A DNA stretch of 64,000 nucleotides from Salipiger pallidus. Its GTDB lineage: Bacteria; Pseudomonadota; Alphaproteobacteria; Rhodobacterales; Rhodobacteraceae. The first letter of the stretch is position 1. The number at the start of each line of letters is the position of its first letter. The position numbers and the translations under genes are program-made. Below are positions 4,320-52,188 of this stretch, piece by piece. The notes beneath the pieces are model-generated. The model was not told where the DNA came from. It saw only the letters and a list, made by a program, of their open reading frames with translations, and did no database searches. The stretch lies in assembly GCF_014643635.1 (NCBI RefSeq), contig NZ_BMJV01000004.1, positions 1-64,000 on the forward strand, written 5' to 3'.

Positions 4320-4357
4320 GGCTCACTTTTTCCTTCGTCGGCTGCTTGAGTGAGGAC

Positions 4358-4520: not shown

Positions 4521-4562
4521 GGGCTGACAACACCCACGGAACAACCACCGGAGATCATCCCC

Positions 4563-6649: not shown

Positions 6650-6707
6650 AGCTGCCCCACGGCGCGATCACTGGCATCCCCTGCAATGCGGGTCAGCGAA
6701 TTGTGGG

Positions 6708-13444: not shown

Positions 13445-13747
13445 GACATCGTCTCCCGCCGCTTAGGCGGCGGGAGACGCAGGCGTTTAGTACGTGCCAG
13501 GGTGAAGCCAGAGGCTTTGCTGGGATGCGGCAAACTGAGCTGAACGTAGGATATCAACGAACGATGCATCGCCAAGGCAAATTCTGAGAGCGCGCGTTCT
13601 CATCCCTGCCGTGCCTTCACGAGCAACGATGGGGGCATTGGCCTAAAGCCGCCGTCTTGAGAGCGACTTAGGCACCACATCCGTCATTTCTTTCGTTTGA
13701 AACGCCCCCTACACGCGAGGACGCCACGTCCAAGCCGGGACCGGGTT
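13445..13747. other. Intergenic region after the aldehyde oxidase operon
   Basis: About 300 bases between convergent genes. It starts with the strong hairpin at 13450-13479. The rest holds no supported gene or known repeat. Confidence 0.5.
13450..13479 (+). terminator. Strong hairpin, probable terminator after the aldehyde oxidase operon
   Basis: A 12-13 bp perfect stem (CGTCTCCCGCCG paired with CGGCGGGAGACG) with a TTAG loop begins 6 bases after the large-subunit stop codon. No clear T-tract follows, so it may act by stabilising mRNA or as a Rho-assisted or bidirectional terminator facing the convergent DUF421 gene. Confidence 0.6.
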
Positions 13748-14257: not shown

Positions 14258-14485
14258 CTGCGTCTCCTTCGCGGTCTGAGCTGGGCACCTAGCGCGCTAT
14301 CCAAGTTCATCAACTTGCCCAAGCATCGGTCTGCCGCTTGGGCGTCGCAGAACAAAAGAGGTTATCCCGACAAACGCCCCACGCCTCCGATCTTCATTTA
14401 CTTCCCCGCCTCACGCGAGACATCATGCTGAGATCGCAGGTGTCATGGCGGGCCGCTTCATGACAGCGGCCCGCGACAGCGATGG

Positions 14486-15835: not shown

Positions 15836-15847
15836 GATGTCATCTCC

Positions 15848-17617
15848 TCAGACCAGGGGCCCTGGGTTCGGCAGGTATTGGTTCACGATGGCGTCGGTCG
15901 TCCAGTAGGCCAGTGCCCCCACCGCGCCGGTCGGGTTGTATTGGATGTTCTGCGGGAAGGAGGACGCGCCAAGCACGAAGACGTTGTGTTGCCCCCACGC
16001 CTGCTGGAAGCGGTTGATCGAAGAGGTCTGCGGGCTCTCCCCCATGATCGCGCCGCCGACGTTGTGGGTCGTCTGGTAGGGGCGCACGTCGTAGGTGGCA
16101 CCGTCTTCCTTGTAGCTCGACTGCCAGCTGTCGGGCTCCATGGCCTCGACGATCTCCTCGATGCGCTGGCGCATGAACTGGGTCATGCGGATGTCGTTGT
16201 CCTTCCAATCGAAGGTCAAGCGCAGCAGGGGACGGCCATGCGGGTCGGTATACGTCGGGTCGAGATCGAGATAGCAATCCCGGTACGACATGTTCGACCC
16301 GTGCGAGCCGAGCGATGTCGAATGGCCGTAGTGTTCGCCAACCGCCTGCTTCCAGTCCGCGCCCCAGTTCGGCGTGCCCTCGGGCACCGCGATGCCGCGA
16401 ATGGGCTGGCCGTTGGAATGGCCGCAGGTCATGTAGCTGCCGCCGATGAAGCCTTCTGCGGCGTAGTCGATCTGTTCCATGCCGAAATCGTTGATCGACA
16501 TGCCAGACGAGCCCGCCGCCACGAAGGGATTGAACTGGCGGTCGTTGAAGAACATCGTGGTGCCGCCGTTCATCTGGTAGCTGTAGTTCTTGCCCGTGGT
16601 GCCGGTACCGGTCTGCGGATTGTAGGGCTCGCCGATCCCCGACAGCAGCATCAGGTGGACGTTGTGGATCGAGTAGGCGGCGAGGATCACGATATCGGCG
16701 GGCTGGGTCACCTCTTCCTCGGCCTCGGCATCCCAATAGGTGACGCCGGTCGCGGTCTGACCGTCCTCGGCGAGGTTGACGCGCAGCACCTCGGAATTCA
16801 CCCGGTAGTTGAAGTTTTCATAGCGCTTCAGCGCGTCCAGGACGCAGGTCTGCGGCGAGGATTTCGAATAGTTCAGGCAGCCATAGCGCGCGCAGAACCC
16901 GCAGTAATTGCAGGGGCCCAGCTGCATCCCGTATTCGTTCACATGCGGGGCCGAGGCATTGGCGGCCGGGCGCGGGAAGGGGTGATACCCCATCTGCCGC
17001 GCTACGTCGGCGAAATGCAGGCTGTCGGGCTGCTGGGCCAGTGGCGGCAGCGGGTAGTCGCGGGACCGGTTCGGCTCAAAGGGGTTGCCGCCCTCGATCG
17101 TCTCGCCGTTCACCACGCCGGCCTGACCGGAAATCCCGGCCATGTATTCGAACCGGTCATAGTAGGGCTCCAGCTCCTCGGCGGTGACGCCCCAGTCCTG
17201 AATGGTCATGTCCTCGGGGATGGCATCGGCGCCGAAGGTCTCCTCGACATAGGTCCGCAGGCGGTACTCCTGCGCCTGCGGGCGCCAGGTCTGGCCGTTC
17301 CAGTGGATGCCTGCGCCTCCCACGCCATCACCGGGCAGGAAAGAGCCGAGCCGCCGGTAGGGCATGGCTTCTTCGTCTAGGCTGCGGCGGATGGTCAGCG
17401 TGGATTTCTTGGGGCGCTGCATATAGCCGTAGCGGATGCCGAAGCGCAGCTCGTCGATGACATCGGGATATTTGAAGTCGGGCACGGTGGACCGGTCCGG
17501 CCCGCGTTCCAGCGCGAGGATGTCGAGGCCTTCCTTGGCCAGTTCGATCCCAGCGATGGCACCGGTCCAGCCGAGGCCGACAATGACCACGTCGCGTTTC
17601 GTATCGGTTCTTGCCAT
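15848..17617 (-). CDS. GMC oxidoreductase, gluconate 2-dehydrogenase-type FAD subunit
   Basis: 589 residues. The FAD-binding motif VVIVGLGWTGAIAGIELA at the N-terminus (residues about 10-27) is the variant GxGxxG found in gluconate 2-dehydrogenase large subunits, and FGMEQIDYAAEGFIGG and the C-terminal YQTTHNVGGAIMG region are family-like. The Cys-rich stretch GPCNYCGFCARYGC is typical of this membrane-dehydrogenase subfamily. It has no signal peptide of its own and is probably exported together with the Tat-bearing third subunit. It oxidises a sugar acid or polyol in the periplasm; the substrate cannot be told from sequence. Spacing is 3 bases to the upstream subunit gene. Confidence 0.9.
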   Translation of the reverse strand: MARTDTKRDVVIVGLGWTGAIAGIELAKEGLDILALERGPDRSTVPDFKYPDVIDELRFGIRYGYMQRPKKSTLTIRRSLDEEAMPYRRLGSFLPGDGVGGAGIHWNGQTWRPQAQEYRLRTYVEETFGADAIPEDMTIQDWGVTAEELEPYYDRFEYMAGISGQAGVVNGETIEGGNPFEPNRSRDYPLPPLAQQPDSLHFADVARQMGYHPFPRPAANASAPHVNEYGMQLGPCNYCGFCARYGCLNYSKSSPQTCVLDALKRYENFNYRVNSEVLRVNLAEDGQTATGVTYWDAEAEEEVTQPADIVILAAYSIHNVHLMLLSGIGEPYNPQTGTGTTGKNYSYQMNGGTTMFFNDRQFNPFVAAGSSGMSINDFGMEQIDYAAEGFIGGSYMTCGHSNGQPIRGIAVPEGTPNWGADWKQAVGEHYGHSTSLGSHGSNMSYRDCYLDLDPTYTDPHGRPLLRLTFDWKDNDIRMTQFMRQRIEEIVEAMEPDSWQSSYKEDGATYDVRPYQTTHNVGGAIMGESPQTSSINRFQQAWGQHNVFVLGASSFPQNIQYNPTGAVGALAYWTTDAIVNQYLPNPGPLV

Positions 17618-17620
17618 GGC

Positions 17621-18385
17621 TTATGCCCTTTCGCCGGAGATGGAGACGGGGCCGAGCGGGTAGTCTTCCTCGCGTCCGACCCATTCGGCGTAGCTGCCCC
17701 GCGCACCGGGGAAGCCGATGTAGCTCCAAGCAGCCATGTCCGCGTTGCCGCCGTACATCGGGTCGGCGAAATAGCCTTCCTTGGTATTCTGCACGAGCAG
17801 CGAGAAGAACTCCTTGAGCTCGGGCGTGAGGCCGAAGGCGGTGCTGCCGTCCGTGTTGGGGGCGCCGCCGCCGGCATCCTCGGCCATGTCGGGGGTGTTG
17901 CCGCTGGTCGACGGGCCTTCCTCGAGGGCGCTCAGCACCTCGTCCTGCTGGGTGGGGTCAAGATCGGCAAAGACGTTGCCGTACTCATCGGTGCAGGCGG
18001 CATCGATGCGCTCAATGGCGCCGCGGTAGATCTCGGCGGGGGTCAGCGGGCTTTGCGGGCCGAGCGTGTCTGGGGCGTCCGGTTTGAACGGGCCTTCCAT
18101 GTATAGGTCGGCGGCATTGCCGAAATCCCCGGCCAGCTGCAGGTCGATGAAGACCGGCACCCGGGTCTCGATCGCGCCCGGCCCGGCGCCGTCCGAAGGG
18201 ATGATCCGCGCGGTGGCGGCCATGACAAAGGCCCATTCGGCCGCGCTCAGGTACTCTGGGGTGTACTCTTCCAGCGGAGGCGCGTCCTGTGCCTGGGCAC
18301 GGTCCCCGAGGGCAAGTGCCGATGCGGCGGCAGTGCCGCCGAGAAAGCCCCGGCGCGTGGTGTTCAGATAGGTTGGATGGCTCAT
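17621..18385 (-). CDS. Gluconate 2-dehydrogenase subunit 3 family protein, Tat-exported
   Basis: 254 residues from the ATG at 18385, chosen because a GGGAGAGG ribosome binding site precedes it and because it places the twin-arginine signal TTRRGFLGGTAAASALALG at residues 9-27. A start 33 bases upstream lacks these advantages. The mature part matches the small third subunit that accompanies the GMC flavoprotein and lets the pair use the Tat pathway. It is first in the operon subunit 3 - GMC - cytochrome c. Confidence 0.87.
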   Translation of the reverse strand: MSHPTYLNTTRRGFLGGTAAASALALGDRAQAQDAPPLEEYTPEYLSAAEWAFVMAATARIIPSDGAGPGAIETRVPVFIDLQLAGDFGNAADLYMEGPFKPDAPDTLGPQSPLTPAEIYRGAIERIDAACTDEYGNVFADLDPTQQDEVLSALEEGPSTSGNTPDMAEDAGGGAPNTDGSTAFGLTPELKEFFSLLVQNTKEGYFADPMYGGNADMAAWSYIGFPGARGSYAEWVGREEDYPLGPVSISGERA

Positions 18386-18562
18386 CGCGTCTGCCTCTCC
18401 CAAGGGGTTGGCAAGCACGGCGCGAGGGGTGCGTCACCCCGGGGCCGGCACTTGCAAGCGAATGCTCTCTTGCGTGCCTTTTGACCCTAGGGTGGCAAAG
18501 ATGATTATCAAATACATTCAGGGTTGCGAACCTGTTGCTTAGCCCGAGACGGGCGGGCTGGC

Positions 18563-18823
18563 TTAGTTGTGCGGGTCACGCCGGTCGACAAGAGCACGAA
18601 TTTCCCGGAATTCCTCGGCGATCCCAAGAGGCAGAGCCGCGACCTCGGTGGGCAGCGCCGCAGGGTCTTCTTGCCCGTCTCTCAGGACTTCGCGATCTTC
18701 GATCCAGGCGGTCAGCGCGTCCTTTTCCGCCGGCCCCAGCAAGTCCACGAGCCGGGCGAGCAGCTTGCGATGGGCGATCAGGCGGGCCTCGATGGTGGTA
18801 AGGCGTGTATCGACATCTGGCAT
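18563..18823 (-). CDS. Small hypothetical protein, helical
   Basis: 86 residues from an ATG with an ideal ribosome binding site (AGGAGG, 5 bases upstream). It begins MPDVDTRLTTIEARLIAHRK and has a heptad-like, charged helical pattern with no Cys or membrane segment. I do not recognise a family. It stands alone, upstream of the GMC dehydrogenase operon in the same direction. The strong translation start and the charged, non-repetitive composition argue that it is a real gene. Confidence 0.6.
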   Translation of the reverse strand: MPDVDTRLTTIEARLIAHRKLLARLVDLLGPAEKDALTAWIEDREVLRDGQEDPAALPTEVAALPLGIAEEFREIRALVDRRDPHN

Positions 18824-39164: not shown

Positions 39165-39635
39165 TCAATCAGTTATGGGTACTCGAAGGCTTGCTTTCAC
39201 ACGATCGACGACCACTGATGTGGCAAACCTTCGGATGTTGGGATTTTCAACGAAAACCTGACGCGTAAGGCGATCATAGTCCTTCATGTCCTTTGCCAGC
39301 ACGATAAGAACGAAATCGGCCTGGCCGGTGACATAGTAGCATTGCTGAACTTCATCCAAAGCCATCATCGACCGCTTGAATTCGTCCAGCAGATCGACGC
39401 GCTCCCGTTCCAGTTCGACCTCGACCACGAAGGTCATCTGATCGTCGACCTGCTCCGGATCGATCTGCGCGACCTCTTTTGCGATGACGCCGGTTTCATT
39501 CAGTCGTTTCAAACGTCTCTGGATCGATGATCGGGACGCTCCGACCCGTTCCGCCAACGCGTCGGCGGACAGCCGAGCATCCTGCTGCAAGATCGTCAGG
39601 ATTCTGCGATCGGTCTGATCCAATGTCTTGGTCAA
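39165..39635 (-). CDS. Lrp/AsnC family transcriptional regulator, second copy
   Basis: 156 residues with helix-turn-helix (LSADALAERVGASRSSIQRR) and RAM domain (QQCYYVTGQADFVLIVLAKDM). It is paralogous to the regulator at 38524. It is divergent from the aminotransferase/deformylase-like pair at 39761, with a 125-base AT-rich region between, so it probably controls that pair in response to an amino acid. Confidence 0.9.
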   Translation of the reverse strand: MTKTLDQTDRRILTILQQDARLSADALAERVGASRSSIQRRLKRLNETGVIAKEVAQIDPEQVDDQMTFVVEVELERERVDLLDEFKRSMMALDEVQQCYYVTGQADFVLIVLAKDMKDYDRLTRQVFVENPNIRRFATSVVVDRVKASLRVPITD

Positions 39636-39760: not shown

Positions 39761-40720
39761 ATGAGACTTACACCCGACCTCACGCCGGAATATTCAGACC
39801 CACACTCTTATCCCGCTGGCGTCGCCTGGCAGGACGGCCAGTACATCCCGGTATCGCAAGCGAAGATCTCGGTTCTCGACTATGGCTTCCTGCACTCGGA
39901 TGCGACGTATGACACTGTTCACGTCTGGGACGGCGCGTTCTTCCGTCTGGATGCCCATATCGAAAGGTTCCTGGCAGGTGTCGAGCGGCTTCGCATGACG
40001 CTGCCGGTGTCCGTTCCGGAAATTCGCGAGATCCTGCACAACTGTGTCTCGCTTTCCGGTTACCGGCGGGCCTATGTCGAGATGGTTTGCACGCGCGGGA
40101 CGGCGCGGGATTTCAGCCGCGATCCGAGAGCGGCCACCAACAGGTTCCTCGCCTTCGCCGTGCCTTACGGGTCGGTCGCTGATGACGCGCAGATGAAGCG
40201 CGGTTTGCACGTGACCATAACCAACACCACCCGTATCCCGCCAAGCAGTGTCGATCCGCGGGTGAAGAACTATCACTGGCTCGATCTGATCGGGGGGCTT
40301 TTCGACGCCTACGATCGGGGCGGCGAAACGGCCTTGCTGCTCGATAGCGACGGCAACATTGCCGAGGGGCCGGGGTTCAATGCCTTCTCGGTTCGCGATG
40401 GGGCCCTGATCACACCGGAGCATGGAGTCCTGCGGGGTATCACGCGCCGCACGGTCATGGAGATCGGGCACGAACAGGGCAGGACGGTTCGTGAAGGCAC
40501 CCTGACAAGGGACGCGCTACGCAGTTCGGACGAAGTCTTCATCACTTCGACCGCAGGCGGGGTCATGCCCGTCACCCGGATTGACGGAGCGCCCGTGAAC
40601 GATGGCGCGGTAGGGCCGGTCACCCGAGCCATCATGAGCACTTACTGGGCCTGGCACAAGGACAAGCGCTTCGTCGAGGACGTGGTTTACCCCAGCCAAG
40701 AGACGAAGGCGCCGAGTTGA
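39761..40720 (+). CDS. Class IV PLP-dependent aminotransferase
   Basis: 319 residues of the branched-chain/D-amino acid aminotransferase fold. The PLP lysine is in RVKNYHWLDL (about residue 170), and the cofactor phosphate region EGPGFNAFSV near 205 and the ITSTAGGVMPV motif near 265 are present. The opening ISVLDYGFLHSDATYD is typical. It transfers an amino group to or from 2-oxo acids; the substrate is unknown. The divergent Lrp regulator suggests an amino acid signal. The stop overlaps the next ATG (ATGA at 40717). Confidence 0.88.
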   Translation: MRLTPDLTPEYSDPHSYPAGVAWQDGQYIPVSQAKISVLDYGFLHSDATYDTVHVWDGAFFRLDAHIERFLAGVERLRMTLPVSVPEIREILHNCVSLSGYRRAYVEMVCTRGTARDFSRDPRAATNRFLAFAVPYGSVADDAQMKRGLHVTITNTTRIPPSSVDPRVKNYHWLDLIGGLFDAYDRGGETALLLDSDGNIAEGPGFNAFSVRDGALITPEHGVLRGITRRTVMEIGHEQGRTVREGTLTRDALRSSDEVFITSTAGGVMPVTRIDGAPVNDGAVGPVTRAIMSTYWAWHKDKRFVEDVVYPSQETKAPS

Positions 40721-41244
40721 TGCCTGTTCGTGACGTACTGCTATTCGGCGATCCACGCCTGACCGCAAAAGCAGAGACCGTAGACATCGAGAAGGATAGC
40801 TGGAGGACAGACGCAGACGACCTGCAGCAGACCCTGGCTCATTTGAAAAGAACCATGGGGTTCGGTCGGGCTCTGGCCGCACCGCAGATCGGTTCATGCT
40901 TTCGGATGGTCGCCTTCGACTGTGAGCTGGGAACGTTCGTGGCGCTCAATCCCCGGATCGTCTGGTCGTCCGATAAGCGCCAACCAGTCTGGGACGACTG
41001 CTTTAGCCTGCCCGGAACGAGTGTCGCGGTGACACGAAGTGCTTCGGTTACGATGGAGTACAGTGGACTTGATGGGCGTGTTCAAATCCTGGCACGGCTT
41101 TGTCCGTCGCATTCCGAACTTGTTGAGCATGAACTTGATCATCTCGATGGGGTCTTGATGACACACCGGATGATCTCGCCTGTCTCTATTGTCGCGAGTC
41201 AGATGACCAGTCGCGCCGTCCACCCAGCAGGATCATCGACGTAA
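40717..41244 (+). CDS. Peptide deformylase-like metalloprotein
   Basis: 175 residues. Deformylase motif 1 (GFGRALAAPQIG, 48-59) and motif 3 (EHELDHLDG, with His138, Glu139 and His142) are intact. Motif 2, normally EGCLS, reads DDCFS with the metal-binding Cys95 kept, so an active metal site is likely but the substrate pocket differs. It is co-translated with an aminotransferase rather than with fmt, so it may remove formyl groups from an amino acid derivative, not from nascent proteins. Housekeeping deformylase remains possible. Confidence 0.78.
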   Translation: MMPVRDVLLFGDPRLTAKAETVDIEKDSWRTDADDLQQTLAHLKRTMGFGRALAAPQIGSCFRMVAFDCELGTFVALNPRIVWSSDKRQPVWDDCFSLPGTSVAVTRSASVTMEYSGLDGRVQILARLCPSHSELVEHELDHLDGVLMTHRMISPVSIVASQMTSRAVHPAGSST

Positions 41245-41649: not shown

Positions 41650-42936
41650 TTAAGCGAATGAGAGAATAACCCCGAGATCTTCCAGGCGCTTCCAATAGCT
41701 TGGAAAGGTCTTGTTGACGCATCCGGGGGCAAGAATGGATACGCCGGGGCAGCGCAGCCCTGCGAGAGCGAAGCTCATCGCCATTCGGTGATCCAAGTGG
41801 GGGTCTATCTCGCAGTCGAGCGCGTCGCGTCCTAGGGTTGGCCTGCCGTGAACAATCAGATCGTTCCCTGTAAGGGTTGCAAGGCCGGGTTGCATGCGGT
41901 TCAGTCCCTCGTGCAGGACTTGCAATCGATCGCATTCCTTGTGGCGTAGGTTTGAAATACCCGTGAAATGGACGTCTCCGTTCGAAAAGGCACTTAGAAC
42001 GGCGAGGGCGGGGACCGCATCCTGCATTTGCGCGCCGTTGATGTGGTCGGGCAGCTCGGGAAATCGCCGCATGATCGCACGCGCCATCACGTCCGGCTGC
42101 TCTGACTGGGCGATGCCGAGGTCCAGCTGGCCGCCGGTGAGCGCTTCAGCAGCCCAGAAATAGGTTGCCGCAGAGGCGTCCGCCTCCACTTTCAGGCGCG
42201 TGGCGCGATACCCGCTGTTTGTAATGCCGATGGTCTGTGCGTCACGGCGCGTGATCTTTGCGCCAAAGGCACGCATGACGGAGATGGTCACATCTAGATA
42301 CCCGCTGGCGTCGATCCGCGGTTCGGCGATGTGCAGCGTGGTGGGCCGCTCTGCCAAAGGTGCGATCATCATGAGAGCCGATATGTACTGGCTCGAAAGT
42401 GCCCCGCTGATCCGCAGGCCGCCGCCGGCGAAACGCCCGGAGCCGATGACGGTGCATGGCGGGCAGCCGGTCGGCGCTTCGATGGCAACGCCGGCTGCCT
42501 GGAGCGCAGACACGAGCGGTCCGATGGGGCGCTTGCGCATGTGACGATCCCCGTCCAGCTTGACCGGGCCGTTTGTAAGCACGGCAGCGGCGGCCAGAAA
42601 CCGCATGGCCGTTCCGGCGTTCCCGAGAAAGAGCGGTGCGCCCGACGCGGTCCATTGGGCTGGTGGTGAGATCTTGAGATCGTCACCTTCGGAGATGCTG
42701 ACCCCGAACGCACGCAGCGCGGTGATCATGTGCTGCGTATCGTCGCTGCGCAGGGCGCCGCAGATCCGCGACGTCCCGCGCGACAGCGCCGCAATCAGCA
42801 GGGCGCGATTGGTGATGGACTTGGACCCCGGAAGGCGGACGTGCCCGCGAAGGGCGCGCTCGGAGGGGTGGATGGTGACGCGCTGGGCCTGCTCGGCCAG
42901 TGCGCCAATCGGCGGGAGTGTCATGGTCTCGGGCAT
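41650..42936 (-). CDS. aroA: 3-phosphoshikimate 1-carboxyvinyltransferase (EPSP synthase)
   Basis: 428 residues, full length. It adds enolpyruvate from PEP to shikimate 3-phosphate in the shikimate pathway. Motifs are LPGSKSITNRALL (35-47), LFLGNAGTAMRFL (102-114), the SSQYISALMM loop, HKECDR (about 335) and DHRMAMSFALAG near the C-terminus. The residue matching E. coli Pro101 is Phe113. It is divergent from the LysR regulator of the phosphonate-type cluster, with only 78 bases between the two starts. A lone aroA away from other aromatic biosynthesis genes may be a second copy. Confidence 0.92.
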   Translation of the reverse strand: MPETMTLPPIGALAEQAQRVTIHPSERALRGHVRLPGSKSITNRALLIAALSRGTSRICGALRSDDTQHMITALRAFGVSISEGDDLKISPPAQWTASGAPLFLGNAGTAMRFLAAAAVLTNGPVKLDGDRHMRKRPIGPLVSALQAAGVAIEAPTGCPPCTVIGSGRFAGGGLRISGALSSQYISALMMIAPLAERPTTLHIAEPRIDASGYLDVTISVMRAFGAKITRRDAQTIGITNSGYRATRLKVEADASAATYFWAAEALTGGQLDLGIAQSEQPDVMARAIMRRFPELPDHINGAQMQDAVPALAVLSAFSNGDVHFTGISNLRHKECDRLQVLHEGLNRMQPGLATLTGNDLIVHGRPTLGRDALDCEIDPHLDHRMAMSFALAGLRCPGVSILAPGCVNKTFPSYWKRLEDLGVILSFA

Positions 42937-43014
42937 GATTGCTGACTAGCGGAACACGGCTTCCGGCCCTACGGTGTTCTTTGAACAAATGTGTTAGTTA
43001 AAGAGACCGATGAG

Positions 43015-43944
43015 ATGCGTCGACTGCCTCCGCTGAAAGCCCTTTACGCCTTCGAGGCCGCCGCGCGCCACGAGAGCGTGACCAGGGCCGCAACCGAACT
43101 GAACGTCAGCCACAGCGCAATAAGTCAGCAGATCAAGATACTTGAACAGTATTTCAATCAGAAGCTTTTCGAGAAAAAGGGGAACGGGGTCACGCTGACC
43201 CCGAAGGCGCGTACCTTTCTGAAGGATGTGACCGAGAGCCTCGATCAAATCGCCGTTGCTTCAGAAAATCTTTCGGTTTCGCATGTGGTCAACCGGATCA
43301 GCGTCAACGCGACTCCGACCTTCTCGGTGCAGTGGCTGGTGCCGCGCATCGCGGAGTTTCAGCGCCAGTACCCTAGGATCGAGGTCAGGACGGAAACCTC
43401 GACAACCGACCTGCTGAGTAAGGAGTACGACGCCAGCGACATCATCATCAGGCGATTTCCGATGAAACGCACTGGCATGGAATGCACCCGTATTCTCGAC
43501 GACATCACGGTGGCGGTCGCTTCACCGGAGCTGATCGAGCGTGATCCAGTGACGGAACCTGCGGATCTGCTGCGCTTCAAGCTGCTGCATATCAAAAGCA
43601 GGATCTCTGCCTGGCCCAACTGGTTTCGCAAGGCTGGCATCGAGACGAGCCAGACGCTGTCCGGGCAGATCTTCGACCACATCTTCCTGGGCCTCGCATC
43701 CGCCCGCAGTGGCGCCGGGATCTGCCTGTGCCCGCGCGTTCTGGTCGAGGACGAACTGGCTTCGGGCCGACTGGTGGCGCTGTTTCCTGAACATCAGGTG
43801 TCGGGCTCGGGATTCTATGCGCTCTATGACACCAAGAACCGGAACCTGCGCAACGTCGAGCGGCTCATTTCCTGGCTTAAAGACACATCGGACGACGAGG
43901 CGCAGGCGCCGAAGCAGGATGTGGAGTGGGAGCTCTATTCCTGA
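43015..43944 (+). CDS. LysR family transcriptional regulator (GcvA-like)
   Basis: 309 residues from the ATG at 43015; an in-frame start eight codons earlier is possible but would alter the conserved RRLPPLKALYAFEAAARHES opening of the GcvA group. The helix-turn-helix covers VTRAATELNVSHSAISQQIK, followed by the effector-binding domain. It precedes the ABC-aminotransferase-hydrolase operon and is divergent from aroA. A T-N11-A dyad at 44053-44079 is a candidate site. The effector is likely the transported phosphonate or amino acid. Confidence 0.88.
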   Translation: MRRLPPLKALYAFEAAARHESVTRAATELNVSHSAISQQIKILEQYFNQKLFEKKGNGVTLTPKARTFLKDVTESLDQIAVASENLSVSHVVNRISVNATPTFSVQWLVPRIAEFQRQYPRIEVRTETSTTDLLSKEYDASDIIIRRFPMKRTGMECTRILDDITVAVASPELIERDPVTEPADLLRFKLLHIKSRISAWPNWFRKAGIETSQTLSGQIFDHIFLGLASARSGAGICLCPRVLVEDELASGRLVALFPEHQVSGSGFYALYDTKNRNLRNVERLISWLKDTSDDEAQAPKQDVEWELYS

Positions 43945-44052: not shown

Positions 44053-44079
44053 AAGTTAGTATGTAAGTAAAACTAACTT
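44053..44079. promoter_or_regulatory. LysR-type T-N11-A operator upstream of the ABC operon
   Basis: AAGTTAGT (44053-44060) and ACTAACTT (44072-44079) are perfect 8-base arms around an 11-base spacer, the classic LysR box. It sits in an AT-rich 240-base gap before the ABC ATPase start at 44186. A TATAAT sequence at 44013-44018 lies upstream. A matching half-site (GTTAGTTAA) occurs near 42993, just before the LysR start. Confidence 0.65.
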
Positions 44080-44185: not shown

Positions 44186-45268
44186 GTGACTGAACTTTCC
44201 TTGAAAGATGTAAGTAAATCCTACGGCGGCGTAGAGGTCCTCAAGGGTGTCCGCCGGAAAATATCTGACGGCACGTTCTTCACGCTCCTGGGGCCAAGCG
44301 GGTGCGGGAAGACGACCCTCTTGAGGATCGTCGCTGGGTTCGTGTCCCCGACATCCGGTCGGGTCCTGTTCGGCGGTGACGATATCACCGGGATTTCGCC
44401 GCACCGGCGCGGTGTGGGAATGGTGTTCCAAGACTATGCCCTTTTTCCGGACAAGACGGTTTTCGACAATGTCGCCTACGGGCTGAGGGCGCGGCGCATC
44501 CCGGCCCGGACGGTCCGCACGAAGGTGCATGACTATCTCGACAGGGTGGGGCTTGGCGGCCTGGGAGACCGGCTGCCAAGCGAGATGAGCGGCGGTCAGC
44601 GCCAGAGGGTCGCATTGGCGCGCGCGCTCGTGATCGAGCCCCGGGTGCTGCTCATGGATGAGCCGCTGTCCAATCTCGACGCTTCGCTGAGGGTACAGAT
44701 GCGGGACGTGATCCGCAGCCTGCAGCTTGAAACCAAAACCACAACCATCTTTGTGACCCACGATCAGGAAGAAGCGCTGGCGATGTCCGACGAGATCGCG
44801 GTGATGAAGAATGGTCGCATCGATCAGTGCGGCGCGCCGGTCGATGTCTACCGCAGCCCCGAGACGGCCTATGTGTCCGACTTCGTCGGCTCCGCCAACC
44901 TGCTGCCCGCGGAACTGCTGGGGGAAGTAGCCGGAGGGCTTCACCGCTTCCGCGTGATGGGAACCGAGGTTTCGGGGCGCATTACGCGGCAGTCGCAGAC
45001 GGGGCGTTATCTCATGGTCGCGAGGCCTGAGAATCTTGGGCTCCGTTCATCCCAAGGCGCCGATCCCGGCGAGGGGCAGCTTCAGGGACATGTCGTCTCA
45101 CTTCAGTTTCAGGGCTACCGCACGAGCTATCACGTCGCGCTTGCGGACGGTCGGGACATGCATGTCGAGACCTTCGGTGAGGATGGCGGCACCAGCATCG
45201 GACGCGGTGACGCGGTTGTCATCAGCCTTGGGAGCAAGTCGGTCTTCGTGCCGGAGGGGGACGCGTGA
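44186..45268 (+). CDS. ABC transporter ATP-binding protein (Fe3+/spermidine/2-aminoethylphosphonate type)
   Basis: 360 residues from a GTG start. Walker A GPSGCGKTT (about 36-44), Q-loop VFQDYALFP, signature MSGGQRQR, Walker B LLMDEPLSNLD and the switch His in VTHDQEEA are intact. A C-terminal TOBE-type domain (about 285-355) follows. It powers import through the fused permease encoded next, whose GTG start overlaps this stop. The class includes 2-aminoethylphosphonate importers, which fits the downstream enzymes. Confidence 0.92.
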   Translation: MTELSLKDVSKSYGGVEVLKGVRRKISDGTFFTLLGPSGCGKTTLLRIVAGFVSPTSGRVLFGGDDITGISPHRRGVGMVFQDYALFPDKTVFDNVAYGLRARRIPARTVRTKVHDYLDRVGLGGLGDRLPSEMSGGQRQRVALARALVIEPRVLLMDEPLSNLDASLRVQMRDVIRSLQLETKTTTIFVTHDQEEALAMSDEIAVMKNGRIDQCGAPVDVYRSPETAYVSDFVGSANLLPAELLGEVAGGLHRFRVMGTEVSGRITRQSQTGRYLMVARPENLGLRSSQGADPGEGQLQGHVVSLQFQGYRTSYHVALADGRDMHVETFGEDGGTSIGRGDAVVISLGSKSVFVPEGDA

Positions 45269-46905
45269 ACCGGTTCTTTCCCTGGGTGCTTCTGACGGTC
45301 CTTGCTCTCGTCTTCCTTCTCATTTTCGTCGGATATCCCATTCTTGGTGTCCTCGCCCGCAGCTTCATCGGGGAGGGCGGGGGGCTGTCTCTTGACGGGT
45401 TCGCTACCTTCATGACGCGTGGCCGCTACCTCGAAGCGCTGATGAACACGATGATCCTCGGGGTCGTTGTCACCTGTACCTGCACAATCGTCGGCGTGTT
45501 CCTTGCGTTCGTAGTGGCCCGCTACGAGGTTCCCTTCAGCAACGTCATCATGCTGCTCCCGCTGTCGGTGCTGATCATTCCCGAGCTGATCTCGGCTCAG
45601 TCCTGGGTCATGGTCTTCGGGAACAACGGACTTGTCACCAACCTGTTCGATGCGATCGGTCTGGAGTTTCCGCGCTTCTACGGCTGGTTCGGGCTAGTCT
45701 ATGTGATGACGCTGACCTTCTACGTCCACATCTTCCTTGCTGCTCTGGCAGCGCTGCGCGGCGTCGATCACAGTCTTGAAGAAGCCGGGCAGAGCCTCGG
45801 GACCGCGCCTTTGCCCACCTATCTGCGGGTGGTGTTTCCCACCATCATGCCGGCAGTACTGTCCTCGGGTCTGATCGTCTTCACGCTTGTGGTCGGGAAC
45901 TTCGCGATCTCGATTGCCCTGGCGCAGCGGGTCGCCCTGCTGTCGGTCATGACCTACCAGAGCTTCATCAGCGAACTCGGCGGAAACCCGACGATGCAAT
46001 CGACGCTGGCGACCGTCTCAATCCTGTTGGTCGCTGCCGTGCTGTTCATCCAGAAGCGTTACCTCGCCAAGCGTAACTACCAAATGGTGGCCGGTCGCAC
46101 GCCGCCCCGTATTCGGCTGCGCGGCTGGAAATCCATCGTCGTGTCGGGGCTGGCCGGGCTGATCATCCTGCTCTCGCTTCTTCCTGCGCTGGTGGTCTTG
46201 GTCGGATCCTTCACCGTTTCGCGGGGGCCGGTGCTCTATTGGGGGCAGTTCACGCTCGAGCATTACCAGCGCATCTGGACCTTCAACATGCCGGTGATCG
46301 TCAACTCGCTGAAGTTCGCGTCGCTTGCCACTGTACTTGGCGTCACCTTCGCAACGCTGGTGTCGTACCTGCTGATCAAGAAGCGCACGGCGCTCAGTCC
46401 AGCGGTGGACTACCTGCTGCTGCTTCCTCTGACCATTTCGGGGACTGTGCTGGGCATCGCGCTGGCCCAGGGCTTCAACAGTGGGCCGGTGGTGCTGACC
46501 GGAACGGCGATGCTCATGGTGCTTGCCATGATGGTGCGGCGGCTGCCCTTCGGTGTCCGCAATGCCTCGTCCAACCTGCACAACATCTCCAACTCGCTCG
46601 AGGAGGCGTCGGTCAGCCTTGGCGTGCCGCCGATGCGGTCGGTTCGCAACGTTGTGCTGCCGCTCATGGCACCGGGCATCGCGGCGGCCGCGATCCTGAC
46701 CTGGGTGACGACCGTGGCCGAGCTGAGCGCCAGCGTGGTCATCTACCAGGCCGGGCAGGAGACGCTGCCGATCCAGATCTTCCGCCTGATCTCTTCCGAT
46801 CTGATGGCCCGGGCCTCGGCCTTCGGCGTCATCAACATGATCATCATCCTCGTTCCGGTCTTTGTCGGGATCAAGGTGATGAAAGTCCGTCTCTTCTCAT
46901 CTTAA
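45265..46905 (+). CDS. ABC transporter permease, tandem-domain (FbpB type)
   Basis: 546 residues with about 12 membrane segments formed by two fused permease halves, each with an EAA loop (DHSLEEAGQSLGTAPLPTYL near residue 170; NSLEEASVSLGVPPMRS near 445). Such fused permeases serve Fe3+, thiamine or aminoethylphosphonate importers. It is translationally coupled to the ATPase gene and 17 bases from the binding-protein gene. Confidence 0.9.
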   Translation: MNRFFPWVLLTVLALVFLLIFVGYPILGVLARSFIGEGGGLSLDGFATFMTRGRYLEALMNTMILGVVVTCTCTIVGVFLAFVVARYEVPFSNVIMLLPLSVLIIPELISAQSWVMVFGNNGLVTNLFDAIGLEFPRFYGWFGLVYVMTLTFYVHIFLAALAALRGVDHSLEEAGQSLGTAPLPTYLRVVFPTIMPAVLSSGLIVFTLVVGNFAISIALAQRVALLSVMTYQSFISELGGNPTMQSTLATVSILLVAAVLFIQKRYLAKRNYQMVAGRTPPRIRLRGWKSIVVSGLAGLIILLSLLPALVVLVGSFTVSRGPVLYWGQFTLEHYQRIWTFNMPVIVNSLKFASLATVLGVTFATLVSYLLIKKRTALSPAVDYLLLLPLTISGTVLGIALAQGFNSGPVVLTGTAMLMVLAMMVRRLPFGVRNASSNLHNISNSLEEASVSLGVPPMRSVRNVVLPLMAPGIAAAAILTWVTTVAELSASVVIYQAGQETLPIQIFRLISSDLMARASAFGVINMIIILVPVFVGIKVMKVRLFSS

Positions 46906-46922: not shown

Positions 46923-47906
46923 ATGACTTTCCCAAATGCTTTCACCCTTCTTGCCGTATCGGCGACACTTTCAGTGTCGTCTGCGTCAGCCACCCTGGCT
47001 GCAGACGTGAACCTCTACACCTCCAACAGCGAGGATGCCGTTGCGCTGGTGCTGGATGCGCTGAACGAGCAGGCGCCCGACATCCGGGTCAATGTTATCG
47101 GTGGCGGCTCGGGCTCGCTTCTGCGCCGGATCGACGCCGAGAAATCCGCCCCCGCGGCGGACCTCTTCTGGAGCAGCGGCTTCTCGACCCTTGCCGGGTT
47201 CTCCGAGCTTTTCAGTGGCTATGACACGCCACAGGCCGACAACCTGTTGCCGTCGCTTCAGGCGCTGGACGACCCTTGGACCGGCACGAACACCCACGTC
47301 ATGGTGCTCATGGTGAACGCCGATGTGCTCGATGGCAACGCCCCCGAGAGCTGGCAGGACCTGATGGATCCCGCATGGCAGGACAAGGTAACGATGGCAG
47401 ATCCGGCCAACTCCAGCTCGGCCTACGCGCAGCTCTACGGCATTTACCAGCTCTACGGCGAGGACGGGGTGCGCAAGCTGGCGGACGTGGTCGAGGTGCA
47501 GGGCAGCACAAGCGGCGTCTACAAGGCCGTCGCCCAGGGCGAATACCCGGTTGGCATGACCATGGAGTACGCCGCGCAGCGCTACGTCGCCGGCGGGCAG
47601 GACGAGATCTCTCTCACCTATCCCTCCGATGGGACCTTCCTGTCGCCCGAAGGCATGGCGCTGGTGAAGGACGGCCCGAACCCCGAGGACGCGAAGCGGG
47701 TCTACGACATCCTGCTGTCGCGCGACCTCCAGCAGCAGCTTTTCGAACTGACCTTCCGGCGGCCCTCGCGCGGGGATCTCGATGAGGCAATCGCGGCAAG
47801 CGGTCTGCCGCTGATGAAAGACGTGAGCATTGTCGAGATCGACCAGACCGCCGCCGGAGACGAGCGCGAGCGCCTGCTCGACCTCTGGGCCGAGGCACGC
47901 GGCTGA
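46923..47906 (+). CDS. ABC transporter periplasmic substrate-binding protein
   Basis: 327 residues from the ATG at 46923. A Sec signal peptide ends near ATLAAD (residue about 25). The mature start VNLYTSNSEDAVALVLDAL and the loop GGGSGSLLRRIDAEKSAPAA are typical of the Fe3+/2-aminoethylphosphonate-binding (type 2) family. Residues NSSSAYAQLYG and STSGVYKAVAQGE line the expected anion site. The Tyr pair that marks iron binders is not obvious. With the downstream hydrolase, phosphonoalanine is the inferred ligand. Confidence 0.87.
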   Translation: MTFPNAFTLLAVSATLSVSSASATLAADVNLYTSNSEDAVALVLDALNEQAPDIRVNVIGGGSGSLLRRIDAEKSAPAADLFWSSGFSTLAGFSELFSGYDTPQADNLLPSLQALDDPWTGTNTHVMVLMVNADVLDGNAPESWQDLMDPAWQDKVTMADPANSSSAYAQLYGIYQLYGEDGVRKLADVVEVQGSTSGVYKAVAQGEYPVGMTMEYAAQRYVAGGQDEISLTYPSDGTFLSPEGMALVKDGPNPEDAKRVYDILLSRDLQQQLFELTFRRPSRGDLDEAIAASGLPLMKDVSIVEIDQTAAGDERERLLDLWAEARG

Positions 47907-47968: not shown

Positions 47969-49174
47969 ATGGGAATCCTATCCTCGAAGCTGGCGGCGGT
48001 GAAACCGTCGCAGACCAAAGCCATGACCGCCCTCGCGGCCAGCCTGCGGGCAGACGGCAAGTCCATCATCACGCTCAGCCAGGGCGAGCCCGATTTTGCG
48101 ACACCGCCCAACATCTGCAAGGCCGCAACCGATGCGATCGCCGCCGGGCACACCAAGTATACGGCGGTTGCCGGCATCACGCCGCTGCGCGAGGCCGTGG
48201 TTGAAAAGTTCAGCCGCGAGAACGGGCTGACCTTCTCGGTCGATCAGGTCACCGTCGGGTGTGGCGCCAAGCAGCTTCTGTTCAACGCGCTGGTGGCAAG
48301 CCTTGACGAGGGCGACGAGGTGGTGTTCCCGACGCCCTGCTGGGTGTCTTACCCCGAGATGATCAAACTGGCCGGCGGAACGCCAGTGGCCCTCGAGACC
48401 CGGGTCGAAAACGGGTTCATCCTCAGGCCCGAGGCGCTGCGGGCGGCGCTTGGTCCCCGCACCAAGTGGCTGATGCTCAACTCGCCCTCCAACCCGACCG
48501 GGGCCGTCTATTCACGTGACGATCTGCAGGCGCTGGCCGCCGTGCTGCGCGACTTTCCCGATGTCTGGGTTCTCGCAGACGACATCTACGAGCATCTTGT
48601 TTATGGCGATGCCGCCTTCGCCACCATGGCCGAGGTCGCGCCGGATCTTGCGGACCGCGTGCTGACGGTCAACGGGGTCTCCAAGTCCTATGCCATGACC
48701 GGCTGGCGCGTGGGCTATGCGGCTGGCCCGCTGGAGCTCATCAAGGCGATGAACACCGTACAGGGCCAGTCGACCTCCCACACCTGTTCGATTGCGCAAC
48801 ATGCTGCGCTCGAGGCGCTGACCGGCGATCAGAGCTTCCTGCCGGAGTTCCGCAAGGCCTTCCAGGCGCGCCGGGATCTCGTGGTGGGACTGCTGAACGA
48901 GGTCGATGGCCTGTCGTGCCGCACGCCTGACGGGGCCTTTTATGTCTTTGTCGCCTGCGACGCCCTGCTGGGCCGCACCGCGCCCTCCGGCAAGCGGATC
49001 GAAACGGACATGGATTTCGCCATGTACCTGATGGAGGAGGCAGGTGTCGCGGTGGTGCCCGGGTCGGGCTTCCTGGCCGACGGTTTCATTCGCATTTCCT
49101 ATGCCTCCTCGGAAGAGGAGCTGCGGCAGGCCTGCAGCGCCATTGCCGCCGCCGTCGCGGCCCTTGCTGCCTGA
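47969..49174 (+). CDS. Class I PLP aminotransferase, probable phosphonoalanine transaminase
   Basis: 401 residues from the ATG at 47969. It is of the aspartate aminotransferase Ib type: GEPDFATPP, the SPSNPTGAVYS motif, ADDIYEHLVY, and PLP-binding Lys239 in GVSKSYAMTGWRVGYAAGP; the C-terminal RISYASS carries the carboxylate-binding Arg. Aspartate aminotransferases can accept the aspartate analogue 2-amino-3-phosphonopropionate. With the phosphonopyruvate hydrolase-like gene 31 bases downstream, the inferred reaction is phosphonoalanine + 2-oxoglutarate to phosphonopyruvate + glutamate. A generic aspartate aminotransferase is the alternative. Confidence 0.85.
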   Translation: MGILSSKLAAVKPSQTKAMTALAASLRADGKSIITLSQGEPDFATPPNICKAATDAIAAGHTKYTAVAGITPLREAVVEKFSRENGLTFSVDQVTVGCGAKQLLFNALVASLDEGDEVVFPTPCWVSYPEMIKLAGGTPVALETRVENGFILRPEALRAALGPRTKWLMLNSPSNPTGAVYSRDDLQALAAVLRDFPDVWVLADDIYEHLVYGDAAFATMAEVAPDLADRVLTVNGVSKSYAMTGWRVGYAAGPLELIKAMNTVQGQSTSHTCSIAQHAALEALTGDQSFLPEFRKAFQARRDLVVGLLNEVDGLSCRTPDGAFYVFVACDALLGRTAPSGKRIETDMDFAMYLMEEAGVAVVPGSGFLADGFIRISYASSEEELRQACSAIAAAVAALAA

Positions 49175-49205: not shown

Positions 49206-50081
49206 ATGAGACCTACCAGCAAATGCCTTCGTGAGATCATTTCGTCTGGCGGCATGGCCCGCGTCATGGCGGCGCATGACCCGATGTCGGCCCGTCTGGT
49301 CGAGGAAGCGGGCTTCGACGCGATCTGGGCCAGCGGCTTCGAGTTTTCGGCCGCCATGGGGCTCGCGGACGTTTCGCTCGTGTCGATGACCCAGCATCTC
49401 GATAACATGCGGCGCATGGCCGACCGGTCGTCGCTGCCGATCGTGGCCGATGTGGATACGGGATATGGCAATGCGGTGAATGTCATACACACCGTGAAGC
49501 AGTTCGAGGCGGCAGGCGCCTCGGCGGTGGTGATCGAGGACAAGGCCTTTCCCAAGGTCACGTCTCTGATCGCTGGGGGCCGTCAGGATCTTTTGCCGAT
49601 CCCCGAGAACCAGGGAAAGATCGAGGCGGCGGTGAGCGCGCGGCAGGATCCCGACTTTCTCGTCATTGCCCGCGTCGAGGCCCTGATCGCCGGGCGTGGC
49701 GAGGCTGAGGCATTGGAGAGGGCGCGGGCGTATGAGGCCGCGGGCGCGGACATGATCCTGATCCACTCCAAGCAGAAGACCCCCGATGAGATCGAGAGCT
49801 TCATCAACGCCTGGAACGGGGCCGTTCCCATCGTGATCGTACCGACGGCCTATCCTCAGATGACTGAGGCTCGCGCGGCTGCGTTCGGCAAGGTCGGCAT
49901 GCTCATCTACGGCAACCATGCCATCCGCGCTGCCGTGACCGGGATGCAGAAGGTTTTCGCCCAAATCATCGCCGAAGGGGGAATCGAGACTGCGAACGAC
50001 GAGATCGTGCCGGTGTCGGAAATCTTCCGCCTTCAGGACATGGACGATGTGAAGCAGATCGAAAAGCGCTTCCTGCGCTGA
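49206..50081 (+). CDS. pphA: Phosphonopyruvate hydrolase (PEP mutase / isocitrate lyase superfamily)
   Basis: 291 residues, almost the length of the Variovorax Pal2 enzyme (290). The PEP-mutase branch is clear: WASGFEFSA (Trp41, Ser43), Mg2+-binding Asp82 and Asp84 in ADVDTGYGN, ARVEALIAG, LIHSK, IVIVPTAYP and a C-terminal EIFRLQ. The gating-loop signature reads EDKAFPKVTS, with Thr119 where PEP mutase has Asn122 of EDKxxxxxNS; the Thr form is, to my knowledge, that of phosphonopyruvate hydrolase. It would split phosphonopyruvate into pyruvate and phosphate. PEP mutase is less likely because no phosphonopyruvate decarboxylase or phosphonate biosynthesis gene is near. It follows the aminotransferase by 31 bases. 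Confidence 0.78.
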   Translation: MRPTSKCLREIISSGGMARVMAAHDPMSARLVEEAGFDAIWASGFEFSAAMGLADVSLVSMTQHLDNMRRMADRSSLPIVADVDTGYGNAVNVIHTVKQFEAAGASAVVIEDKAFPKVTSLIAGGRQDLLPIPENQGKIEAAVSARQDPDFLVIARVEALIAGRGEAEALERARAYEAAGADMILIHSKQKTPDEIESFINAWNGAVPIVIVPTAYPQMTEARAAAFGKVGMLIYGNHAIRAAVTGMQKVFAQIIAEGGIETANDEIVPVSEIFRLQDMDDVKQIEKRFLR

Positions 50082-50150: not shown

Positions 50151-51563
50151 ATGTCCAGCACCCAGTTTCTTGCCGACGTCGACGCCATGTTCGACGATGC
50201 CGTTGCCTGCCTGCAACTCGAAGAAGGGCTCGCCACGAAGATACGCGTTTGCAACGCAACCTATGTTACCCGGTTCGGAGTGCGTCTCGACGGGCGCATG
50301 CACACCTTCACCGGCTGGCGGTCGGTGCATTCGACGCACAACTCGCCAGCCAAGGGCGGCATCCGCTTCTCGCCCGGGGCCAACCAGGAAGAGGTCGAGG
50401 CGCTTGCCGCCCTGATGACCTATAAATGTGCCCTGATGCGGCTGCCGTTCGGTGGATCGAAAGGAGCGCTGGCCATCGACCCGTCCGACTGGAGCGAGGC
50501 GGCCCTAGAAAAGATCACGAGGCGCTTCGCGCAGGAGTTGGTAACGCACAACTTCCTGGGATCTGCCATGAACGTTCCCGCGCCGGACATGGGGACCAAC
50601 GAACGCCACATGATGTGGATTGCGGATGAGTACCGGCGGCACCGGCCACAAGACATCAACGCGATGGGCTGCGTAACCGGCAAACCGGTTGGCGGCAACG
50701 GGATCGAGGGGCGGACGGAGGCGACCGGGCGGGGCGTGCAGTATGCGCTGCACCAGTTCTTCCAGACCGAAACCGACTGGCGGCGGGCGGGGTTCGCGTC
50801 TGGAGAAATGGGCGCACTTCGCATCGTGGTGCAGGGTCTTGGCAATGTCGGGTATCACGCCGCCCGCTTCCTGAGCGAAGAGGATGGCTGCCGCATCGTA
50901 CGGGTGATCGAACGGACCGGCACCGTCACCTGCCCGGAAGGCATCGACATCGTGGCGTTGCGGGCGCATCTCGACAGGGCACGGACCGTAATTGGGTTTG
51001 AGGGTGGCGAGGTCGCGCCGCCCGATGCCTCTGATCTCGAGTACCCCTGCGACGTCCTGATCCCGGCGGCCATTGAGGGCGTGATCCACGAGGGCAATGC
51101 CGCGCGGCTGCAGGCCCGCCTGGTGGTGGAGGCCGCAAACGGGCCGACAACCTACGCCGCCGACCGGATCCTGAGAGATCGCGGTATCACTGTCATTCCA
51201 GATCTTTTCGCCAATGCCGGCGGCGTGGTGGTGAGCTACTTCGAATGGGTAAAGAACCTCACGCATATCCCGTTCGGCCTTATGGAGCGGCGGCGCACCG
51301 AGGTGGGCAATCACAGGTTGGCCCGAACCCTCGAGCTGATGACCGGAAATAGCTTTCCCGAAGAGCACGAGAGCACATTCCTGCGCGCCGGGGCCGAGAT
51401 TGATCTCGTGCGGTCGGGGCTTGAGGAGATGATGCGGTCTGCTTATGCGGCTATGTCGCGGCTGGTGAACGATCGGGGAACCTCGGTGCAGGATCTGCGC
51501 ACGGCAGCCTATGTCCTCGCAGTAGGAGAAATTGCGGCAGCCTATCGGGCCATCGGGCTTTGA
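50151..51563 (+). CDS. Glu/Leu/Phe/Val family dehydrogenase (probable glutamate dehydrogenase)
   Basis: 470 residues. The substrate-binding domain has HSTHNSPAKGGIRFSPG and LPFGGSKGAL (catalytic Lys in PAKGG), MNVPAPDMGTN and ATGRGVQYALHQF; the Rossmann domain has VVQGLGNVGYHAA (about 226-238). It interconverts glutamate and 2-oxoglutarate with NAD(P). Its place 69 bases after the hydrolase suggests that it recycles the glutamate formed by transamination and releases ammonium. The C-terminus is longer than usual in short bacterial GDHs (about 420) but within family range. Confidence 0.87.
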   Translation: MSSTQFLADVDAMFDDAVACLQLEEGLATKIRVCNATYVTRFGVRLDGRMHTFTGWRSVHSTHNSPAKGGIRFSPGANQEEVEALAALMTYKCALMRLPFGGSKGALAIDPSDWSEAALEKITRRFAQELVTHNFLGSAMNVPAPDMGTNERHMMWIADEYRRHRPQDINAMGCVTGKPVGGNGIEGRTEATGRGVQYALHQFFQTETDWRRAGFASGEMGALRIVVQGLGNVGYHAARFLSEEDGCRIVRVIERTGTVTCPEGIDIVALRAHLDRARTVIGFEGGEVAPPDASDLEYPCDVLIPAAIEGVIHEGNAARLQARLVVEAANGPTTYAADRILRDRGITVIPDLFANAGGVVVSYFEWVKNLTHIPFGLMERRRTEVGNHRLARTLELMTGNSFPEEHESTFLRAGAEIDLVRSGLEEMMRSAYAAMSRLVNDRGTSVQDLRTAAYVLAVGEIAAAYRAIGL

Positions 51564-51585: not shown

Positions 51586-52188
51586 ATGATGCGGATCCTT
51601 GCGTTTAGCGACCTTCACCGAGATCGCGAAACTGCCGCACAGATTGTGGCGGCCAGTGCTAATGCTGACGTGCTGGTGGGCGCAGGAGATTTCGCCATGC
51701 GCGGCCTTGGCTTGGCAGATACCCTTGATGTCCTGTCAGACGTGGCTGCGCCTCTGGTTGTCGTGTCTGGCAATCACGACAACTCCGCCGAATTGAGCGC
51801 TGCCTGCGAGGCGGCACCCATGCTTCACTATCTCGACGGGGATACTGTCTCGTTTGGTGGGGTAACCTTCTACGGTATTGGCCGCGAAATCCCCTTCCAG
51901 AAGGATGCGCCTTGGAGTGAAAGCCGTTCCGAAGACGCCGCACGCATGATGCTTCGGTCATGTCCGGAAGATGCCATTCTGGTTTCGCATGCGCCGCCGT
52001 ACGGTGTCCTCGACCATCAGGCTGACGGACGATGTGGGGGAAGTCAGGCCCTGCGCGAACTGCTGGGGGAAAGGCCGCCAAGGCTGCACCTCTGCGGGCA
52101 CATCCACCATTGCGCCGGGCAGAAGTCTCAGCTGGGCGCAACGCGGATCTTCAACCTTGGTCCGAGCCTGACCTGGATCGAATTTTGA
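51586..52188 (+). CDS. Calcineurin-like metallophosphoesterase
   Basis: 200 residues from the ATG at 51586 after GAAAGGACAAG. All metal motifs are intact: FSDLHRD (DxH), GAGDFA (GD), SGNHDN (GNHD), SHAPP and CGHIHH (GHxH). This is the YfcE/Icc-like compact fold. It follows the glutamate dehydrogenase by 22 bases and is probably the last gene of the phosphonate cluster. It may act on a phosphate ester or side product; the substrate is unknown. Confidence 0.82.
   Translation: MMRILAFSDLHRDRETAAQIVAASANADVLVGAGDFAMRGLGLADTLDVLSDVAAPLVVVSGNHDNSAELSAACEAAPMLHYLDGDTVSFGGVTFYGIGREIPFQKDAPWSESRSEDAARMMLRSCPEDAILVSHAPPYGVLDHQADGRCGGSQALRELLGERPPRLHLCGHIHHCAGQKSQLGATRIFNLGPSLTWIEF

Follow-up and report, generated by a model that had tools for sequence, protein, structure and literature searches.

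Among the closest described systems to the locus analysed here is the pal cluster of Variovorax (palR, palA, palB, palCDE). In the pal pathway, uptake of phosphonoalanine is followed by transamination to phosphonopyruvate, which is then split into pyruvate and phosphate (PMC10574752). According to the same review, the Variovorax pal operon is induced by PalR together with phosphonoalanine or phosphonopyruvate, and the part of the review available to us names no aroA in its account of this cluster (PMC10574752). Two biosynthetic clusters are also relevant. The flavophos cluster contains a duplicated lumazine synthase, that is, a spare housekeeping enzyme inside a phosphonate cluster, which gives resistance, as does the expression of ordinary lumazine synthases (PMC12871164). 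In the arsenic biosynthetic (bsn) cluster of Streptomyces, the EPSP synthase homologue BsnM is encoded with a phosphonopyruvate-decarboxylase-like gene and is needed for the organoarsenical bisenarsan; in the reaction proposed for BsnM, arsenate accepts the pyruvate group of EPSP (PMC12159101).

We analysed a 64,000-nucleotide stretch of the Salipiger pallidus genome (contig NZ_BMJV01000004.1, positions 1 to 64,000; hereafter, the window), in which a LysR-type regulator, a transporter, an aminotransferase and a phosphonopyruvate hydrolase are encoded side by side, as in Variovorax (Table 1). Unlike the Variovorax cluster, that of the window additionally includes a divergent aroA gene (aroA2), a glutamate dehydrogenase-like gene and a metallophosphoesterase gene, none of which is annotated beside the pal cluster on the V. 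paradoxus VAI-C plasmid. Whereas the flavophos cluster is biosynthetic and its inhibitor has been tested, the cluster in the window is catabolic and its inhibitor is putative. The bsn cluster resembles the window in that an EPSP synthase homologue lies beside enzymes of phosphonopyruvate-like chemistry; however, the genes in question in the window encode a hydrolase, a transporter and a LysR regulator, and BsnM is likened to AroA2 by its published description.

Table 1. Coordinates of aroA2, the adjoining pal-type cluster and the predicted regulatory sites in the window.
Feature	Coordinates	Strand	Evidence or remark
aroA2, second EPSP synthase, E. coli (class I)-like	41650..42936	-	428 aa; TIGR01356, AlphaFold2 model
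Divergent aroA2-lysR gap, 78 bp	42937..43014	.	
Weak LysR operator-like site, contains GTTAGTTAA (42993-43001)	42990..43010	+	matrix score
LysR-type regulator, GcvA-like, probable PalR	43015..43944	+	relatives 85, 70 and 64% identical in three other clusters
Predicted LysR operator GTAAGTAAAACTAAC, upstream of transporter operon	44063..44077	+	matrix from three other clusters
ABC transporter ATPase, PhnT2-like	44186..45268	+	score below PhnT2 family cut-off
ABC transporter permease, PhnU2-like	45265..46905	+	score below PhnU2 family cut-off
Extracellular solute-binding protein	46923..47906	+	
Class I/II aminotransferase, PalB-like	47969..49174	+	start set by homology to the Thalassospira locus (L005)
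Phosphonopyruvate hydrolase (PalA)	49206..50081	+	TIGR02321; PDB match
Glu/Leu/Phe/Val dehydrogenase, glutamate dehydrogenase-like	50151..51563	+	77% identical gene in S. meliloti LMB1 cluster
Calcineurin-like metallophosphoesterase	51586..52188	+	present too in Thalassospira and Pseudosulfitobacter clusters

The start codon of lysR was placed at 43015 by homology (protein start MRRLPPLKAL), so that the gap separating it from aroA2 (ORF 41650-42936) measures 78 bp, and the divergent arrangement given in the preliminary description is borne out. On its other side, aroA2 is tail-to-tail with a class IV aminotransferase gene and a peptide-deformylase-like gene that overlap by 4 bases (39761-41244); an Lrp-type regulator gene (39165-39635) adjoins this pair.

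For the transporter ATPase and permease, the top NCBIfam matches are 2-aminoethylphosphonate families, both under the respective cut-offs. The hydrolase scores 376.7 bits against TIGR02321 (cut-off, 374.4), and its best PDB match is phosphonopyruvate hydrolase (2dua/2hjp). Its motif FPKVTSL is as in the phosphonopyruvate hydrolase chain, whereas the PEP mutase compared has NSF at the same place, a position that we take to separate the two enzymes. The aminotransferase, transporter and lysR genes lie in the same gene run as the hydrolase gene. Given the transporter, the aminotransferase and a phosphonopyruvate hydrolase with the TSL motif, the stretch from lysR to the phosphoesterase gene is, as judged from gene content, a pal-type phosphonoalanine catabolic cluster, and by homology we assign it to the pal pathway. 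The PalB-like aminotransferase would convert phosphonoalanine to phosphonopyruvate, and the glutamate dehydrogenase-like enzyme probably recycles glutamate. The earlier view of the lysR neighbourhood as a phosphonate-type cluster can thus be made more specific, with profile scores and the PDB match indicating that both formation and hydrolysis of phosphonopyruvate are encoded.

The source genome (G000; 4.44 Mb, 99.94% complete) contains three PF00275 genes, namely, MurA (TIGR01072, 563 bits), a 447-aa AroA (TIGR01356, 395 bits) that adjoins cmk (TIGR00017, 172 bits), and aroA2, which exceeds the TIGR01356 cut-off (325.7 versus 287.25 bits). The search for another aroA in this genome, suggested in the preliminary description, therefore found one beside cmk, and the gene in the window is the second; a second copy of the putative target lies inside the gene cluster, one mark of target duplication. 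The 447-aa AroA matches the CP4 (class II) EPSP synthase of Agrobacterium, which catalyses the same reaction, and is about 26% identical to AroA2. It has Gly at the CP4 Ala100 site, and its best PDB match is 2ggd, the A100G mutant. Because the A100G substitution restores glyphosate sensitivity in CP4 (PMC8983318), this housekeeping enzyme is probably of the glyphosate-sensitive type.

AroA2 is instead similar to the class I enzyme of E. coli, with which it shares 34% identity, the fold and the checked active-site residues. The AlphaFold2 model of AroA2 (mean pLDDT 94) adopts the EPSP synthase fold and superposes on S3P-bound E. coli EPSP synthase with a TM score of 0.88-0.89 and an rmsd of 1.8 Å. 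In the alignment to E. coli AroA, residues K22, S23, R27, N94, G96, R100, R124, S169-Q171, D313, N336, K340, E341, R344, R386 and K411 are kept. Among the residues checked, which we take to be those of the active site, Ser197 is the only one changed. The differences from the E. coli enzyme are Phe for Pro101, Ala for Ser197, Gly for Pro199, His for Val339, Cys for Thr342, and a gap of 16 residues at 284-299.

AroA2 belongs to a clade with 100/100 support in trees that included 16 or 5 outgroup rows picked from 77 distant loci. Clade members were detected in 9 of 385 genomes of the class (E 1e-70) and in 7 of 374 genomes of the family (E 1e-60), the source genome being counted each time; a search of viral contigs gave no match. 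We compiled 18 genomes (the source genome, 8 from the class scan, 3 behind loci L005-L007 and 6 from the family scan). In 13 of these, a clade member was the sole EPSP synthase detected, standing in for class II AroA (loci L128-L130, L132, L134, L135, L214-L218, L006 and L007). The other five (G000, G675, G277, G355 and G464) carry a class II gene too, called in G355 at 41% identity. The count takes in G099 (84% complete) and G675-G677 (completeness not given). It leaves unclassified the weak PF00275 fragments of G271 and G175, together with another PF00275 gene in G355, and treats the MurA-like genes of G1175 and G1343 (30-32% identity) as MurA. Because clade members are the sole EPSP synthase detected in 13 of the 18 genomes, the clade very probably consists of true EPSP synthases that catalyse the normal reaction.

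Clade members also occur on plasmids. On plasmid NZ_CP146503 of Erwinia persicina (L085, 3927-13502), a relative with 52% identity to AroA2 forms part of a class 1 integron platform: its gene has the class 1 integrase gene with the attI leader (RF02912) on one side and tniQ, tniB and transposase genes, which we read as being of the Tn402 type, on the other. Solitary clade aroA genes, whose flanks lack pal genes, are present on two Pseudomonas plasmids (L086, L087) and a Moraxella plasmid (L088), which measure 60-109 kb; on the Moraxella plasmid, the gene is flanked by transposase genes.

Several substitutions are clade-wide. In all 16 clade rows, Ser197 is replaced by Ala or Gly, Pro199 by Gly and Thr342 by Cys, and E. 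coli residues 284-299 are absent, whereas all 16 outgroup rows have Ser at position 197 and 15 of the 16 have no gap at 280-305, the remaining one being without 4 residues. AroA2 itself has diverged further, with changes at 9 of the 110 positions that are otherwise invariant in the other 15 clade rows; three of these changes, V339H, I387M and P241A, lie beside active-site residues. By the same count, 1 of 102 positions is changed in the AroA of a Thalassospira MAG (L005) and 9 of 110 in the long-branched Moraxella copy. The divergence of AroA2 may reflect adaptation or relaxed constraint, and we give no weight to it or to the closeness of the changes to the active site.

These changes, together with the long branch of AroA2 (1.42, exceeded in the clade only by Moraxella, 1.99, and G464, 1.86), could point to an altered enolpyruvyl transferase that uses another acceptor or works from EPSP in the direction of phosphate, arsenate or a phosphonate-like product. 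BsnM would be a precedent (PMC12159101), and the nearest free-standing relative of aroA2 in the tree, from a genome of the same family as the window in which no other EPSP synthase was detected (G1071; L214, 6421-10107), is divergent from genes for ArsJ and an ArsJ-associated GAPDH. However, the Ser197 change and the gap are common to members that are the sole EPSP synthase of their genomes, which lowers the probability of a new substrate. Moreover, the other checked substrate-site residues of AroA2 are kept, its Thalassospira sister is hardly altered, the pal cluster is a degradative one, and the window genes that we named include none for arsenic. We therefore consider a changed reaction improbable.

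The linkage between aroA and the pal cluster was examined across hydrolase loci. In the Thalassospira MAG, lysR (70% identity) is again divergent from aroA (54%) in an orthologous cluster, in which the pair is followed by the phosphoesterase, hydrolase (82%), aminotransferase, binding protein, permease (82%) and ATPase genes. Thus, the coupling of aroA and lysR proposed for the window is conserved in one other genome. The pair precedes the transporter genes in the window and is located at the other operon end, beyond the phosphoesterase gene, in Thalassospira, so it has stayed together while the operon arrangement differed. The two AroAs are sisters, with support of 97/80 and in 98% of 200 bootstrap trees when more clade rows were included, and of 88/49 in the tree with fewer clade rows. 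Because the divergent pair recurs and its aroA genes are sisters, the pair has probably been passed on as one unit, and we regard the linkage of aroA to the pal cluster as fairly well supported by these comparisons.

The aroA gene is absent within the 12-kb flanks of two other orthologous clusters, that of Pseudosulfitobacter plasmid P3 (L190), which is the closest to the cluster in the window (LysR, 85%; hydrolase, 92%), and that of S. meliloti LMB1 pB (L191; LysR, 64%). As two of the four orthologous clusters lack an adjacent aroA, the gene is not required at such a pal cluster. On the Pseudosulfitobacter plasmid, two mutually divergent genes, one for RidA and one for another LysR regulator, lie upstream of lysR (4156-6730). 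In S. meliloti, the pal cluster is followed by genes for D-amino-acid transaminase, glutamate dehydrogenase and pyruvate carboxylase (12001-18810), the last of which is a possible PEP bypass. Overall, aroA is found beside the hydrolase gene in 2 of 17 hydrolase loci, the window included; these comprise the window, the Thalassospira locus, 8 of 36 plasmid records, the Variovorax plasmid reached via the permease and six stretches from 5 of 16 other genomes, with the EPSP synthase search covering 16 loci, the Variovorax stretch judged by annotation alone, and some stretches, L194 and L199 among them, cut by contig or record ends. The 13 more distant loci have no aroA within the flanks read and have a different regulator or transporter, or none in these flanks. 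Around the other clade members (14 + 6 loci), there were no matches to the hydrolase, aminotransferase, permease or binding protein. A scan of the taxonomic order of the source genome with the permease returned only the source genome (1 of 390), scans of the genus Thalassospira only the one MAG (1 of 29), and a hydrolase scan of the family of the source genome gave 1 of 295 over the cut-off. These scans thus added no further lysR-aroA pair.

Comparison of intergenic regions identified a dyad, GTTAG-N5-CTAAC, ahead of the transporter genes in all four orthologous clusters, with no mismatch in the Thalassospira, Pseudosulfitobacter and S. meliloti clusters and one in the window (GTAAGTAAAACTAAC). 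With a matrix built from the three other clusters, the site in the window ranks first among 63,980 positions and was equalled in 0 of 2000 shuffles, in which, as in all the operator shuffles here, only single-base composition was kept. Dyads with at most one mismatch occur at only three places in the 4.44-Mb genome, this site among them, versus 78 per strand for the backward control pattern, and such dyad-like words are therefore scarce in this genome whatever their role. Further one-mismatch dyads are present at position 15077 of the Thalassospira locus and 13767 of the S. meliloti locus; looser matches over the whole stretches are at chance level.

In the gap between aroA2 and lysR, the best match to the same matrix (42990-43010) reaches a score attained at 6 of the 63,980 window positions, itself counted, and in 80 of 2000 gap shuffles, and is not within two mismatches of the dyad. 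It includes GTTAGTTAA, the LysR half-site-like word pointed out in the preliminary description, which is indeed present at 42993-43001 and by itself is weak evidence. The corresponding gap in Thalassospira contains a one-mismatch copy, GTTAATTCTTCTAAC (70 of 2000 shuffles), and no operator-like site was found upstream of lysR in the aroA-less Pseudosulfitobacter cluster, where 1629 of 2000 shuffles were as good. The earlier suggestion of LysR-linked control is thus upheld in part, in that both aroA-lysR gaps contain operator-like sites, but these are weak; that aroA2 is under the same LysR regulator as the pal operon is moderately supported by these predicted sites. A perfect dyad in the gap of the window, TGTTCTTTGAACA (TGTTC-TTT-GAACA, 42975-42987), fits what we take to be the general T-N11-A form of LysR sites. 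We set it aside, as by our estimate short dyads often arise by chance and, by eye, neither the Thalassospira nor the Pseudosulfitobacter cluster keeps it. The 78-bp gap showed no sigma-70-like promoter.

A rival account is that aroA2 is a passenger or a case of ongoing replacement, a member of a mobile EPSP synthase clade that landed beside lysR and serves the shikimate pathway in the usual way, unconnected with phosphonates. The clade spreads among Alphaproteobacteria and often replaces class II AroA; five of the 13 genomes in which it provides the sole EPSP synthase found are from the family of the window. It also occurs alone on the Pseudomonas, Erwinia and Moraxella plasmids, and in G277, G355 and G464 the clade aroA, whose flanks contain no pal genes, coexists with a class II gene. 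However, such a chance insertion would not readily account for a lysR-aroA pair that is present in two taxonomic orders despite different operon arrangements, for the sister relationship of the window and Thalassospira AroAs, or for the operator-like sites, weak as they are, in both gaps, and we regard it as rather unlikely.

Glyphosate offers another conceivable link between aroA and phosphonates, AroA2 being in this case a tolerant enzyme that withstands glyphosate or another phosphonate inhibitor entering by the same transporter. The alignment to E. coli AroA agrees with the preliminary description that Phe113 is the equivalent of Pro101. As a mark of tolerance, which that description had raised with caution, this residue is not supported, and we set it aside. 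Phe is the ordinary state at the site, being present in all 16 clade rows and in 14 of the 16 outgroup rows (the other two have Met and Pro), and Gly96 and Thr97 are as in E. coli in all 16 clade rows. The natural glyphosate-tolerant class I enzyme AM79 has Phe at the corresponding Pro site, numbered 106 by its authors, who name several candidate residues for tolerance (PMC3371024). In addition to this parallel, the probable sensitivity of the housekeeping class II AroA, with Gly at the CP4 Ala100 site (PMC8983318), and the presence of an aroA2 relative in a class 1 integron platform would suit a resistance gene. Nevertheless, AroA2 retains G96 and T97 of the E. coli enzyme, Phe is widespread at 101, and the cluster indicates phosphonoalanine rather than glyphosate, so that resistance of this kind appears to be a poor candidate.

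The explanation we favour, tentatively and at a little below an even chance, is that aroA2 is a regulator-linked spare EPSP synthase of the pal cluster that protects chorismate synthesis from phosphonopyruvate. We infer both this protective role and the induction of aroA2 with the pal operon. Once imported, phosphonoalanine would be transaminated to the PEP analogue phosphonopyruvate, and LysR, sensing either compound, would switch on the pal operon and, via the shared 78-bp gap, raise the level of AroA2. Phosphonopyruvate and PEP would compete for the housekeeping class II enzyme, and AroA2 would keep chorismate synthesis running by virtue of a different active site, a higher dose, or both. 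Given that ordinary lumazine synthases also protect in the flavophos case (PMC12871164), AroA2 need not be intrinsically tolerant. Our literature searches found no report of inhibition of EPSP synthase by phosphonopyruvate and none linking aroA with pal terms; the available part of PMC13302981 contains no inhibition data.

More broadly, phosphonopyruvate might inhibit EPSP synthase in nature, and some phosphonoalanine degraders might keep a spare EPSP synthase under regulator control as an antidote to their own intermediate, a generalization that we find possible but doubtful. Such an antidote could be the counterpart, in a catabolic pathway, of the duplicated targets of antibiotic producers, and the pyruvate carboxylase of S. 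meliloti could be a second such PEP bypass. If this is the case, eating a phosphonate would poison the PEP enzyme of the eater itself, EPSP synthase would be a natural phosphonate target outside glyphosate chemistry, and the second, mobile EPSP synthases of bacteria would have a natural explanation.
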